A DNA stretch of 54,488 bases, taken from an uncultured Fidelibacterota bacterium. GTDB taxonomy: Bacteria > Fidelibacterota > Marinisomatia > Marinisomatales > Marinisomataceae. The notes below the pieces were generated by a model, which made no database searches, was not told the origin of the DNA, and saw nothing but the letters and a program-made list of their open reading frames with translations. The stretch spans positions 1 through 54,488 of the forward strand of contig CACGRA010000004.1 in assembly GCA_902575395.1 (NCBI GenBank), read 5' to 3'. Positions 47,597 to 52,436 of the stretch are shown piece after piece. Made by a program: the position numbers and the translations under genes. How positions within the stretch are numbered: position 1 is the stretch's first letter; every line of letters starts with the position of its first letter.

Positions 47597-47857
47597 ATGA
47601 TTGCAATTGTAGAAATATACGGAAAACAGTATAAAGTCACTAAGGGTGACACTATTACAGTTAATTCTAAGATTGACTTAGATATAGGTAAAACTATCAA
47701 ATTTGATACTGTAAAAGCAATATTTGATAAGGATAAGAATATCTTTAGTCCAAAAGAATTAAATAAATACAAAGTAAGCGCTAAAATAGTTGATCATTCT
47801 AGAGATAAAAAAATAACTGTTATCAAGAAAACAGTGAAAAAGCTCAAAGTTTTTTAA
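47597..47857 (+). CDS. rplU: 50S ribosomal protein L21, 3'-truncated
   Basis: MIAIVEIYGKQYKVTKGDTITV...VSAKIVDHSRDKKITVIKK matches the L21 N-terminus and core. The C-terminal RRKxYRxxxGHRQxxT signature is missing (ends KTVKKLKVF). Confidence 0.8.
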   Translation: MIAIVEIYGKQYKVTKGDTITVNSKIDLDIGKTIKFDTVKAIFDKDKNIFSPKELNKYKVSAKIVDHSRDKKITVIKKTVKKLKVF

Positions 47858-47868
47858 TCTATGATAAA

Positions 47869-50490
47869 ATGAAAATGTATGTGCATGGTAATAGCGTAGA
47901 CATAGAAGAGAACCAAACTGATGTTCAATTATTTATTGAGTTTGGTAATGGAGAAGAATATTATAGATTAAGTCAGCCTGTTTATGATGGGTGGGATGAA
48001 GGCCAGAATCGTAATTCTATTGATTTAGATTTAGATTGGTTAACTACGTTAAAAAATGCTGACGACATTTCTATTGAAAAAATTAACTCCAATGACACTT
48101 TTGTTGATTCAACAGACTATAAACGTTATTCATTTATTGATGAAAATAATGATGAATATAAAAAAGTAGAAATTGTAGGAAATCCTTCGCTCTCTAGATT
48201 ACAATATTTTATTGTTGGTGTAGAAAATGATTCAGAGCATCCTATTAGCGGAGAATTATGGCTTGATGAGTTAAGACTTAGTGGGGTTAAAAAAGAAAGA
48301 GGCACAGCTGTAAGATTAAAATCAGAATTTAATTTATCCGATCTTAATCGAAGCACATTGTCATATGTGAGAAAAGATGCTGATTTCCATGTTTTGCAAG
48401 AACGTCTTGGAAGCAATGTAAGCACAGAGACATTTATATTTACCAATCAGATTGAATTAGGAAAATTTTTACCACAAAATCTCGGAATTGCATTTCCTGT
48501 TAATGTGACATATAATATGCAAAATAATACTCCAAAATTTTTACCTGGTACTGATATTAGAACTGGAGCTAGTGCGCCAGATTCAGTCATCACACAATCT
48601 TCAACAATTAGTATGAATGGTAAAATTTCTAAGAAAATAAAATCAGAAAATCCTTTTATTAGATATACTATTGATAATTTGAGCACAACATTTAATGCGT
48701 CTGTACAAAATCGATCTGATGAAATTATGAAACGTGTTGATACAGACAGATTTACTACTAGCCTAGACTATAATCTTAGGTTTCCAAGCGATAATTATAT
48801 TGAAGCATTTCAATGGCTAGAAAAAATACCTGTGGTGGGTGAAAATATGAGTAAAACAAAGTTTTTTTATACTCCTAGTTCATTCAATAGTAGCATAAAG
48901 TTGAACCAAAGTTTTTCTGAAAAACAGTCTAGATCAGTAGAAGATGTTATTGATGATTTTAACTTAGGTTTAACTAGAAATTTTAATGTTTCTTATAAAA
49001 TATTTGATAATCTTCAATTTAATTATACTAAAAATATACAAAGCGATATGGCAGAATATCGTGATGAAGTTATTCAAGCATTAACAGATTTTGAGACTGG
49101 AGATAGAACTAATAATACTGAATCGTTTGCTTCTAATTTTTCTCCTAAATGGGTTTCTTGGTTTTCTCCTAATTTTACATATAATGCGAATTATTCATGG
49201 AATAAACCTAAATCGAGTGTTTTTGATGGAGCAAATATTGTTTCAGTAAGAAATAGTGGATTTAATTTTAGTCTTTCTCCAACAGAAATAATTGAAATAT
49301 TTTATACCCCAGCTTCTAAAAGAAATACAACTGGCTCTAAAACACGAACACGATCTAGAGAAGATATAGGATCTCTTTCTGTTGATATGGGAGATGATGA
49401 TTTAGAAAAATCTGATGAAAAAAGTTCCGAAAGAAAAAACAAAAGGAAAATTAATGATAGTCTACGAATGGAAAAAATATATGGCTGGTCAAAAAAGATA
49501 GAACCATTATCGTTTACTATAAATAATACGACAAATTTAAGCTCTAATGGTGTGCAGGGCAGTATTCCACTAAACTATAGACTTGGATTTTCCGATTCAC
49601 ATGGGCTAGAGTATGCTCCTGAAGTTGGTTTAAATACTGGAGTTGATGATATTAAAAAATCATTATCTATTAGAACTGGAATAAAATTTAATCCTACCAC
49701 ATCAATGAGTGTTTCCTTTTCTGAAAGCATTTCTTCTAATTTAAATGGCTATGGTATTGATATTCGATCAATAAACAGAGACTATTTTTCTTATGGTGAG
49801 CATTTATCTAGTGGATTACCATTTTCAAATTGGTCATTTCGCATTGGCGGACTTGAAAAGATAAAATTTATTAGCCCTTATGTAAAATCTCTTTCAATGG
49901 AACATGCATTTAATGGGAAACAAACTGTTTCATGGAGATTTAATGAAGGGGGAACTAGTGATATTAATTTGTTCCAAATATCTTCTTTTATTGATAGGAA
50001 AAATAATGATATACAATTTTCTCGCATAACAAGAAGCTTTGCTCCTTTGCTTGGTATTACTACTTCTTTTAAAAATGGAATTTCAACAAATGTTAGAAGT
50101 AATATAACTCATACGCTTGATGAAGTCGCAAATGGATTAACTTATATATCAGAGAATAGCATACTTGCAAGTATTACATATAATTTTACAAGAGGAATTC
50201 GTATTCCATTACCATTTACAGAACGAAATGTTGATTTAAAAAATAATATTAATCTGACATTAAATTTTGATGTAAGTAAGAAAAAAGAAGAAGGATCAAA
50301 AGATAAAATAAATTTTGCAGAACAAAATTTTGTTAATTCATGGAAAACAATTTTAAGAGTAACTTATGCTTTAACTGATAATATATCTGGAAGTCTTTTT
50401 TATGAGTATCGAGAAAATGATACAAGACTCACAGGTAGACGAATAGATAGAGATTTTGGAGTAAATATTAATGTTGCAATTAGGGGATAA
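47869..50490 (+). pseudogene. C-terminal portion of SprA/Sov-like T9SS outer-membrane translocon, N-terminus missing
   Basis: KMYVHGNSVD..., RLQYFIVGVENDSEHPISGELWLDELRLSGVKKERGTAVR, long beta-barrel region, C-term LRVTYALTDNISGSLFYEYRENDTRLTGRRIDRDFGVNINVAIRG. No signal peptide; frame open upstream only to 47809. Symbol for the full-length family: sprA/sov. Confidence 0.75.
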
Positions 50491-51409
50491 AATTAAATAT
50501 TTGATAATATTATTTTTACTGTTTTCGTGTAGTAAAGAAGAGCAAATATTAGTTCCTGATTTTGATGGAGTTAAAGCATTTCACTATATAGAAAAGCAGT
50601 GTGAATTTGGTCCAAGGAACCCTGGGTCATCTGGGCATAAAGAATTTTCAATCTATTTAGAAAGTTTTTTAAAAAAGTATGATCAAAATCTTATTGTTCA
50701 AGAATTTGAATATACTGAACCTGTTACTGAAACTATAAAAGAAGGTAAAAATTTTGTTGTACAATTTAATAAAGATGCAGAATACAGATTATTGCTCGGA
50801 GCACATTGGGATACTCGTTCTATATCAGATCAAGATAAGAATCTTGAAAATAGAAAATTACCAGTATTGGGAGCTAATGATGGTGGAAGTGGAACCGCAG
50901 TATTAATGACTTTATGTGATATATTTTCTCAAAATAATCCACCGATTGGTATTGATATGGTTTTCTTTGATGCAGAAGATGGAGGAATTTCTTATCATCC
51001 CAACACTTATGCATTAGGATCAGAATTTTTTGCTAAAAATTTACCTATTCAAAAACCAAATTTTGGAATTATTGTTGATATGGTTGCTGACAAACAGTTA
51101 AATATACCAATAGAACGATATTCTTACAATATTGCTCCAGATGAAGTAATAAAAATTTGGGATTTAGCTGAAAAACTTTCTCTTCAAGCATTTGAGAAAA
51201 AAATTGGTGAAGAAATTTATGATGATCATGTTCCATTGTGGGAGCATGCTCAAATCCCTACCATTGATATTATTGATTTTAAATATCCTAACTTATTCTA
51301 TAATCACTGGCATACCCAACAAGATACACCTGAAAATTGTTCGCCAAAAAGTTTAGAGCAGGTAGGAACTTTGTTAGTAAATTATATCTATGCTGAAAAA
51401 CATAAATAA
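50471..51409 (+). CDS. M28-fold glutaminyl-peptide cyclotransferase (QC), lipoprotein
   Basis: Lipobox LLFSC; LLLGAHWDTR, LGANDGGSGTAVLM, MVFFDAEDGG..YALGSEFFAK, DDHVPLWEHAQIPTIDIIDF, YNHWHTQQDTPENC. Confidence 0.82.
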   Translation: MLQLGDKIKYLIILFLLFSCSKEEQILVPDFDGVKAFHYIEKQCEFGPRNPGSSGHKEFSIYLESFLKKYDQNLIVQEFEYTEPVTETIKEGKNFVVQFNKDAEYRLLLGAHWDTRSISDQDKNLENRKLPVLGANDGGSGTAVLMTLCDIFSQNNPPIGIDMVFFDAEDGGISYHPNTYALGSEFFAKNLPIQKPNFGIIVDMVADKQLNIPIERYSYNIAPDEVIKIWDLAEKLSLQAFEKKIGEEIYDDHVPLWEHAQIPTIDIIDFKYPNLFYNHWHTQQDTPENCSPKSLEQVGTLLVNYIYAEKHK

Positions 51410-52436
51410 AATTCTTTTGAGTATAATTTTTCTGCTTTCTTGTTCAGGCGGAGGAAGTTCTCCTGCAAGCCCTGATGACGGCTCTGATAACAATGGAAAT
51501 ACTGGAGATTCTTATGTATTCCCAAATGCAACTAACTTTGATAGAGAAAATCAAATAGAAATTATCTCTTGGAATATCCAAACTTTTCCTCAATTAAATA
51601 CCACTGCAGATTATGTTAAAAGTTTGCTTGAATCATGGAATGCTGATATATATGTGTTACAAGAAATGGGAGATAATAATACTCTTATAAGTATGGTAAA
51701 CGCTATGCCTGAGTATTCTTATATGCTATCTAGCGAAACAAGTAATTGGGATTTTGCCTTAGTATATAAAACTGCAAATTCCGATTGCGCTTCTTGTGGA
51801 ACTGTAACATATAATAGCCATAATGAACTTTGGGCCGATACGCCTAACTCTAATGACAATGATGATGACTATACAAATAATGCACTTTATCAATTTGCAA
51901 GCAGACCACCAATGGAGAATTATTTAACTTGGACTAATGGAACAAAATCTGTTGATTTATATGTTACCAATATTCACTATAAATGTTGTGGGGATGGAGA
52001 ATTGGATATCACAGATAAAGGAGCAGAATCCACAAGAAGACATTATGCAAGCACTCTTCTTAGAGATCATATAATGAATAATAGACAAGGTGACTATGTA
52101 GTCCTTGCTGGCGATTTTAATAATGTTGGTGAACAATCTATATTAAACCCTTCAATTGCGCCTTTAACTGATCCAGATCAGAATAGTGATTATTTTAAAA
52201 TGGTTGATGAGTATGTTTTTGCTCAAAATAGTTCTACATGGTCTTGGCAAGGATGGAGAAGTTCATTTAGTGCATCACATCTTGATCATATTATTATTAA
52301 TCAACCACTTTTTCAGTTTGAAGCTGTATCTGATGGAGGCATAATTAATATGCTTACTGAAACTGGTATGTCAAACTATGATATTGATGACAAACTTTCA
52401 GATCACCAACCATCTTACTACAGATTTTATCCATAA
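51390..52436 (+). CDS. Endonuclease/exonuclease/phosphatase (DNase I-like) family lipoprotein
   Basis: Lipobox LLSCSGGG; EIISWNIQTFPQ, DIYVLQEMGD, VVLAGDFNNVG, SASHLDHIIIN, SDHQPSYYRF. Confidence 0.85.
   Translation: MLKNINKILLSIIFLLSCSGGGSSPASPDDGSDNNGNTGDSYVFPNATNFDRENQIEIISWNIQTFPQLNTTADYVKSLLESWNADIYVLQEMGDNNTLISMVNAMPEYSYMLSSETSNWDFALVYKTANSDCASCGTVTYNSHNELWADTPNSNDNDDDYTNNALYQFASRPPMENYLTWTNGTKSVDLYVTNIHYKCCGDGELDITDKGAESTRRHYASTLLRDHIMNNRQGDYVVLAGDFNNVGEQSILNPSIAPLTDPDQNSDYFKMVDEYVFAQNSSTWSWQGWRSSFSASHLDHIIINQPLFQFEAVSDGGIINMLTETGMSNYDIDDKLSDHQPSYYRFYP

Follow-up and report, generated by a model that had tools for sequence, protein, structure and literature searches.

The window, by which we mean the whole 54,488-nucleotide stretch of DNA analysed here, encodes a lipoprotein that, judged by its sequence and modelled structure, belongs to the bacterial type II (animal-type) glutaminyl cyclase (QC) family and is not an M28 aminopeptidase. 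Its gene follows the 3' part of sprA, which encodes the outer-membrane translocon of the T9SS, and this sprA-QC gene order holds in at least three bacterial phyla. The reading that we consider probable is that the lipoprotein caps Sec-exported proteins and is the second gene of a co-transcribed sprA-QC pair, with pore and cyclase belonging to one export programme. The features on which the analysis is built are listed in Table 1.

Table 1. Positions in the window of the sprA-QC features and of the predicted active-site codons.
Feature	Position	Strand	Basis or remark
3' part of sprA (T9SS outer-membrane translocon)	47836..50490	+	TIGR04189 above cut-off; 5' part absent from contig
Suspect joint between truncated rplU (47597-47857) and middle of sprA	47836..47857	.	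sprA homology begins at ~47836
Type II glutaminyl cyclase lipoprotein ORF	50471..51409	+	312 aa from first ATG
More probable QC coding region	50492..51409	+	first codon ATG in same-genus relatives, ATT here; inferred
Possible ribosome-binding site AGGGGA	50482-50487	+	upstream of the 50492 start
Lipobox cysteine codon (C20)	50528..50530	+	C20 nearly invariant in 28 orthologues
D137-G138, predicted zinc ligand Asp followed by Gly (QC type; Asn/Asp in aminopeptidases)	50879..50884	+	alignment; PMC7948796
E169-D170, predicted catalytic Glu and zinc-ligand Asp (PgE182, PgD183)	50975..50980	+	alignment
D203, counterpart of HsQC D248	51077..51079	+	alignment
D251-D252-H253, DDH motif (SDH in aminopeptidases)	51221..51229	+	alignment
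W280-H281, predicted substrate-pocket Trp (Tyr in aminopeptidases) and zinc-ligand His	51308..51313	+	alignment

The QC ORF, as given in the preliminary description and re-read here, opens with an ATG. By sequence comparison it is a real gene, because its product matches PF04389 (Peptidase_M28; E=3.4e-27), the sole Pfam match, and the bacteroidal QCs in the PDB, and because a genome search across 59 genera of Marinimicrobia found orthologues in 133 of 139 genomes. By ORF coordinates, its 5' end has 20 nt in common with the SprA-like ORF at 47869-50490. This overlap, from which translational coupling had been proposed, is exact as a matter of coordinates but probably does not mark the start of translation. 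The overlap ATG sits within conserved N-V codons of sprA (AATGTT), and five same-genus relatives (L006-L010) carry, in addition to this ATG, an in-frame ATG one base past the sprA stop; in other members of the genus, QC starts at TAATG, at ATGA or a few nt downstream of the stop. A stop-start junction, with QC beginning at the sprA stop or right beside it, is thus more likely than a 20-nt overlap, which reflects the ORF finder's first ATG and is therefore probably a start-codon illusion. In the window, the codon one base past the sprA stop is ATT (50492-50494); either this is a rare start or a sequence error, or the upstream ATG is used in this genome alone. At the other end of the gene, an ORF for an endonuclease/exonuclease/phosphatase-family lipoprotein (51390-52436) has a 20-nt overlap with the QC 3' end; it adjoins QC only in the window genus and close relatives.

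The assignment to the type II QC family rests on the agreement of profile, diagnostic residues, predicted fold and tree. The best sequence matches in the PDB are the bacteroidal QCs 3gux, 6qro, 3tc8, 4fuu and 6qql (E 9e-55 to 3e-43), which rank above animal QCs and aminopeptidases; the aminopeptidase YwaD is a far weaker match (E 8e-6). Published features that discriminate QCs from aminopeptidases are Asp-Gly instead of Asp-Asn/Asp, Trp instead of Tyr ahead of the zinc-binding His, and a D/D/H site for a single zinc (PMC7948796). The predicted zinc ligands D137, D170 and H281 are present together with the catalytic Glu and Asp (E169, D203). Across 201 aligned homologues the zinc and catalytic residues are essentially invariant, with D-G, DDH and W-H intact, and the compared aminopeptidases have DN/DD, SDH and YH at the discriminating positions. 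The window protein is QC-type at every such position tested except that of PgTrp193, where it has Tyr180. Tyr also occupies this position in 27/42 aligned Bacteroidota QCs, so PgTrp193 is not a strict marker of the family.

An AlphaFold model of the window protein (pLDDT 89.5, pTM 0.88) retrieved QCs from Bacteroides, Tannerella and Porphyromonas as its top Foldseek matches, with TMq of 0.82-0.87, compared with 0.64 for the Streptomyces griseus aminopeptidase. In the proposed structural check against M28 aminopeptidases, the fold was closer to QCs. In a 72-row tree with aminopeptidases as the outgroup, the QC family separates from the aminopeptidases with support of 99/98, in a bootstrap that is not fully settled and with one long outgroup branch. 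The window protein lies within a Marinimicrobia clade, and QCs group largely by phylum. A phylogenetic position among M28 aminopeptidases, which had been named as grounds for abandoning the QC assignment, was thus looked for and did not appear. A viral origin was also considered and is rejected, as no relative of the window QC was found among viral contigs. The lipobox reads LFSC, giving the protein a lipoprotein signal. The N-terminus of the lipoprotein, C-S-K-E-E (50528-50542), resembles the Bacteroidetes surface-export signal; relatives do not conserve C-S-K-E-E. Residues, lipobox, PDB matches, Foldseek and tree together bear out the original description of the protein as an M28-type glutaminyl-peptide cyclotransferase lipoprotein.

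The link between sprA and QC is real and very widely conserved. Of the 139 Marinimicrobia genomes, 133 yielded QC, 134 the sprA C-terminus and 132 both. In 130 of these 132, the two genes share contig and strand, QC being the downstream one; in the other two they are on different contigs. Between the final codon of sprA and the profile match of QC there are at most 400 nt in 129 genomes and at most 100 nt in 116, with a median of 36 nt. In Zixibacteria, sprA is directly upstream of QC in 28/30 loci, and in Calditrichota it is upstream in 24 of the 29 loci with upstream sequence, once at 1155 nt. Related MAGs supply most of the evidence for the linkage as a whole. The same pair was found on two KSB1 contigs (gaps of 114 and 231 nt), on one Gemmatimonadota contig (286 nt) and in a MAG labelled Bacteroidota (L061; 12 nt). 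The Calditrichota QCs that do not adjoin sprA are those of L258-L262, of which the four included in the tree form one clade. In these large genomes the QC groups with QCs from Porticoccaceae MAGs, which suggests transfer.

The preliminary description had placed the pair in a Bacteroidetes frame, which does not hold: the host belongs to Marinimicrobia (SAR406/Fidelibacterota), its nearest named relatives being uncultured Candidatus Marinimicrobia (SAR406) isolates, and in the Bacteroidota sample none of 30 loci has sprA within 1.5 kb of QC. Nor was the adjacency found in the other named Bacteroidota, Ignavibacteria, Fibrobacterota, Cloacimonadota and Poribacteria loci examined; most Bacteroidota genomes with a QC apart from sprA carry sprA elsewhere. 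The survey of FCB genomes that had been called for is therefore positive for Marinimicrobia, Zixibacteria, Calditrichota and KSB1 and negative for the Bacteroidota sample. Among 31 loci with flanking sequence, sprA and QC are kept together in essentially all, and the next-best neighbour is kept in 17/21 Marinimicrobia loci and 2/10 others. The rdgB gene is near the pair in 13/21 Marinimicrobia loci, and the genes downstream of QC in the window genus differ from those in other Marinimicrobia. The literature searched, which did not extend to subscription journals or preprints, held no report joining sprA and glutaminyl cyclase as an operon, and no substantive link of the T9SS with Marinimicrobia.

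The gene upstream of QC was correctly placed in the SprA family, although the contig holds only its C-terminal part. The 873-aa fragment scores 208.2 bits against TIGR04189 (curated cut-off 200), covers profile positions ~1283-2299 and represents the 3' ~40% of the gene, short of the ~2000 aa or more of a complete one; full-length SprA in relatives has 2030-2130 aa. Its N-terminal part is found on another contig (C22) of the same genome, at the 3' end. At the upstream end of the fragment, rplU is cut at 86 aa, and sprA homology starts inside it. Loci from the same genus have rplU and the gene for RNase G on the opposite strand, ~4.8-5 kb downstream of QC. The joint at ~47.84-47.86 kb is probably chimeric, or else a local rearrangement; it lies 2.6 kb upstream of QC and leaves the sprA-QC junction untouched.

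Type I (plant-type) QC, PF05096, catalyses the same reaction as type II QC. One Marinimicrobia genome (G082) has a full-length sprA and no type II QC; there sprA is followed directly by prmA (L305 17140-18001, contig C86), which is the gene after QC in a Calditrichota locus (L055). The same genome encodes a type I QC (E=3e-88) on a different contig (C113), not next to sprA. Among genomes without type II QC, a full-strength type I QC was found in 2/8 Zixibacteria and 4/10 Calditrichota, compared with 1/10 genomes that have type II QC. In some genomes without type II QC, several of them incomplete, no type I QC was found either. This replacement is the strongest genetic indication, on small numbers, that the gene behind sprA functions as a cyclase, and genomes of this kind, with type I QC in place of type II, are natural experiments.

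For the Q-rule, we used a crude caller of our own, which scores the polar residue that comes first behind the hydrophobic signal-peptide core, provided that A, G or S stands before it. Gln occupies this heuristic site in 29/47 proteins of the window genus (62%), 19/26 of a further Marinimicrobia set (G036; 73%) and 21/28 of other Marinimicrobia (75%), compared with 3/16 in E. coli (19%; p=0.0032, 0.00077 and 0.0004 for the three sets). The counts are 11/18 in Calditrichota/KSB1, 9/17 in Bacteroidota and 5/18 in Poribacteria (28%). Zixibacteria (L175-L204, G204) keep the sprA-QC pair and show little Gln enrichment after signal peptides (5/19, 26%). A stricter cleavage-site caller, which called too few or wrong sites, placed Gln at +1 in 33-46% of Marinimicrobia, 5% of E. 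coli and 33% of Poribacteria proteins (p 0.04-0.14), and a c-region version gave 38% for E. coli (n=13). The claim is tentative because results spread between caller versions; the pattern suggests that the Q-rule is likely to apply in Marinimicrobia and probably in Calditrichota/KSB1, and not clearly in Zixibacteria. Four exported proteins of the window itself read LVFA|Q, SLLA|Q, SISIG|Q and FLFS|Q.

Cargo with C-terminal sorting domains for the T9SS is present in the lineage: the tail domain PF18962 occurs in 59/61 relatives and twice in the window's own genome, with many copies in larger genomes and 0-3 per genome in the window genus. Of 20 full-length SprA sequences from Marinimicrobia, Calditrichota, KSB1 and Gemmatimonadota, 11 carry Gln behind a plausible signal-peptide site (L041, L043, L047, L049, L051-L053, L055, L060, L079 and L082). 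The SprA of the window genus, including L002, has no Gln at that site.

These observations are consistent with the following scheme. Signal peptidase I would expose an N-terminal Gln on Sec-exported proteins, which the zinc-dependent lipoprotein QC would convert to pyroglutamate, protecting the exported proteins. The QC would act at the inner-membrane face of the periplasm, where PgQC is located (PMC5837995), and the capped proteins would remain periplasmic, reach the outer membrane or be secreted through the T9SS. The two genes would be transcribed together, with translation of QC beginning at the sprA stop or right beside it, so that pore and cyclase, made together, would be two parts of one cell-envelope export programme. 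We infer QC catalysis, co-transcription with sprA, the start codon, the side of the membrane and why the two genes are linked; pore and cyclase are likely to be co-expressed. PgQC is essential and stabilises exported proteins (PMC10653852), and in Porphyromonas gingivalis pyroglutamate formation was reported not to control type IX secretion. A general role in Sec export and the Q-rule, with co-expression, fits better than the earlier proposal that secretion is tied to capping, and any direct link between capping and T9SS transport, be it mechanical or regulatory, is hypothetical, with the P. gingivalis data arguing against one. Since the genes are apart in Bacteroidota, the linkage is not needed for either function.

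Two alternatives question the gene or its position. An M28 zinc aminopeptidase that serves to trim or recycle peptides, standing behind sprA incidentally, would score in PF04389 as the window protein does; several bacteroidal QC structures have been deposited as aminopeptidases, and H112 and D114 of the dinuclear site are still present. Against this, the residues are of the QC type wherever tested bar PgW193, the dinuclear signature D-N/D, SDH, Y-H is missing, fold and tree place the protein among QCs, and G082, lacking type II QC, has an unrelated type I QC. We reject this identity on residues, fold and tree, and regard it as very improbable. That the adjacency itself is an artefact of the suspect joint has next to no likelihood, as the unit of sprA 3' end and QC is identical in arrangement in 129 other genomes, including the 93%-identical L006, and the joint lies well upstream of QC. 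The joint problem is real, and an assembly artefact is retained as an explanation for it; cross-genome comparison rejects one at the sprA-QC junction, and the earlier concern that the adjacency might be unique to this contig is thereby answered.

The remaining alternatives accept gene and linkage and differ on meaning. The linkage could be an inherited gene order of two envelope genes without functional meaning, in places inside a longer operon. Clustering of QC largely by phylum is what vertical descent predicts, other neighbours are also conserved in most Marinimicrobia (up to 17/21 loci), and Bacteroidota manage without the linkage. We nevertheless think this rather unlikely: sprA-QC is the one constant across Marinimicrobia, Zixibacteria, Calditrichota and KSB1, where every other neighbour differs, and in most genomes the QC start is at the sprA stop or tens of nt from it, which is typical of co-translated pairs. 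Less likely still is a cyclase dedicated to the T9SS, capping SprA or T9SS cargo so that capping serves as a transport licence. Its strict pairing with sprA and the Gln in many full-length SprA sequences would suit such a role; the lack of that Gln in the window genus, the retention of the pair there with so few T9SS tails, the Gln enrichment across exported proteins generally and the P. gingivalis data all speak against it.

The capping of Sec-exported proteins by a co-expressed cyclase, which we prefer, touches on the question of why, in Bacteroidetes, almost every exported protein is pyroglutamylated and why this goes together with the T9SS. The occurrence of the pair in several phyla outside Bacteroidota gives a genetic basis for the co-occurrence of Q-rule and T9SS, and widens the possible reach of the Q-rule. 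More tentatively, and with the balance somewhat against it, the pair may be an old FCB module that the ancestor of Marinimicrobia, Calditrichota, KSB1 and Zixibacteria already possessed and that was split toward Bacteroidota, with an FCB-wide Q-rule and a functional reason for making the two proteins together. If so, the Q-rule would be an FCB-wide export feature and not a Bacteroidetes invention.

Among known systems, the M28 aminopeptidases (YwaD, SgAP, Vibrio AP) have in common with the window protein an ancestral fold and zinc-site scaffold, but differ in Asp-Asn/Asp, SDH and Y-H, bind two metals and form the tree outgroup. Type I QC has an unrelated beta-propeller fold and, in G082, does not adjoin sprA. 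Bochtler et al. (2018, PMC5837995) described the Q-rule for Bacteroidetes, with high values scattered elsewhere. Here, too, the heuristic suggests more Gln behind signal peptides in genomes that hold a QC, but in Marinimicrobia, probably in Calditrichota/KSB1 and not clearly in Zixibacteria. The upstream gene scores above the family cut-off of the T9SS translocon Sov/SprA, which relatives encode at full length, whereas the window copy is truncated on the contig and directly followed by the QC gene. The closest counterparts are the bacteroidal type II QCs (PgQC PG2157, TfQC, PiQC, BtQC, PdQC and BvuQC), which are alike in fold (TMq 0.82-0.87), in the D/D/H zinc ligands, the catalytic Glu and the D-G, DDH and W-H motifs, and in the lipoprotein anchor. 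The window protein is 34-38% identical to them, lacks a 6-residue insertion loop and has Tyr for PgTrp193, and its gene, unlike theirs in Bacteroidota, stands directly behind sprA.
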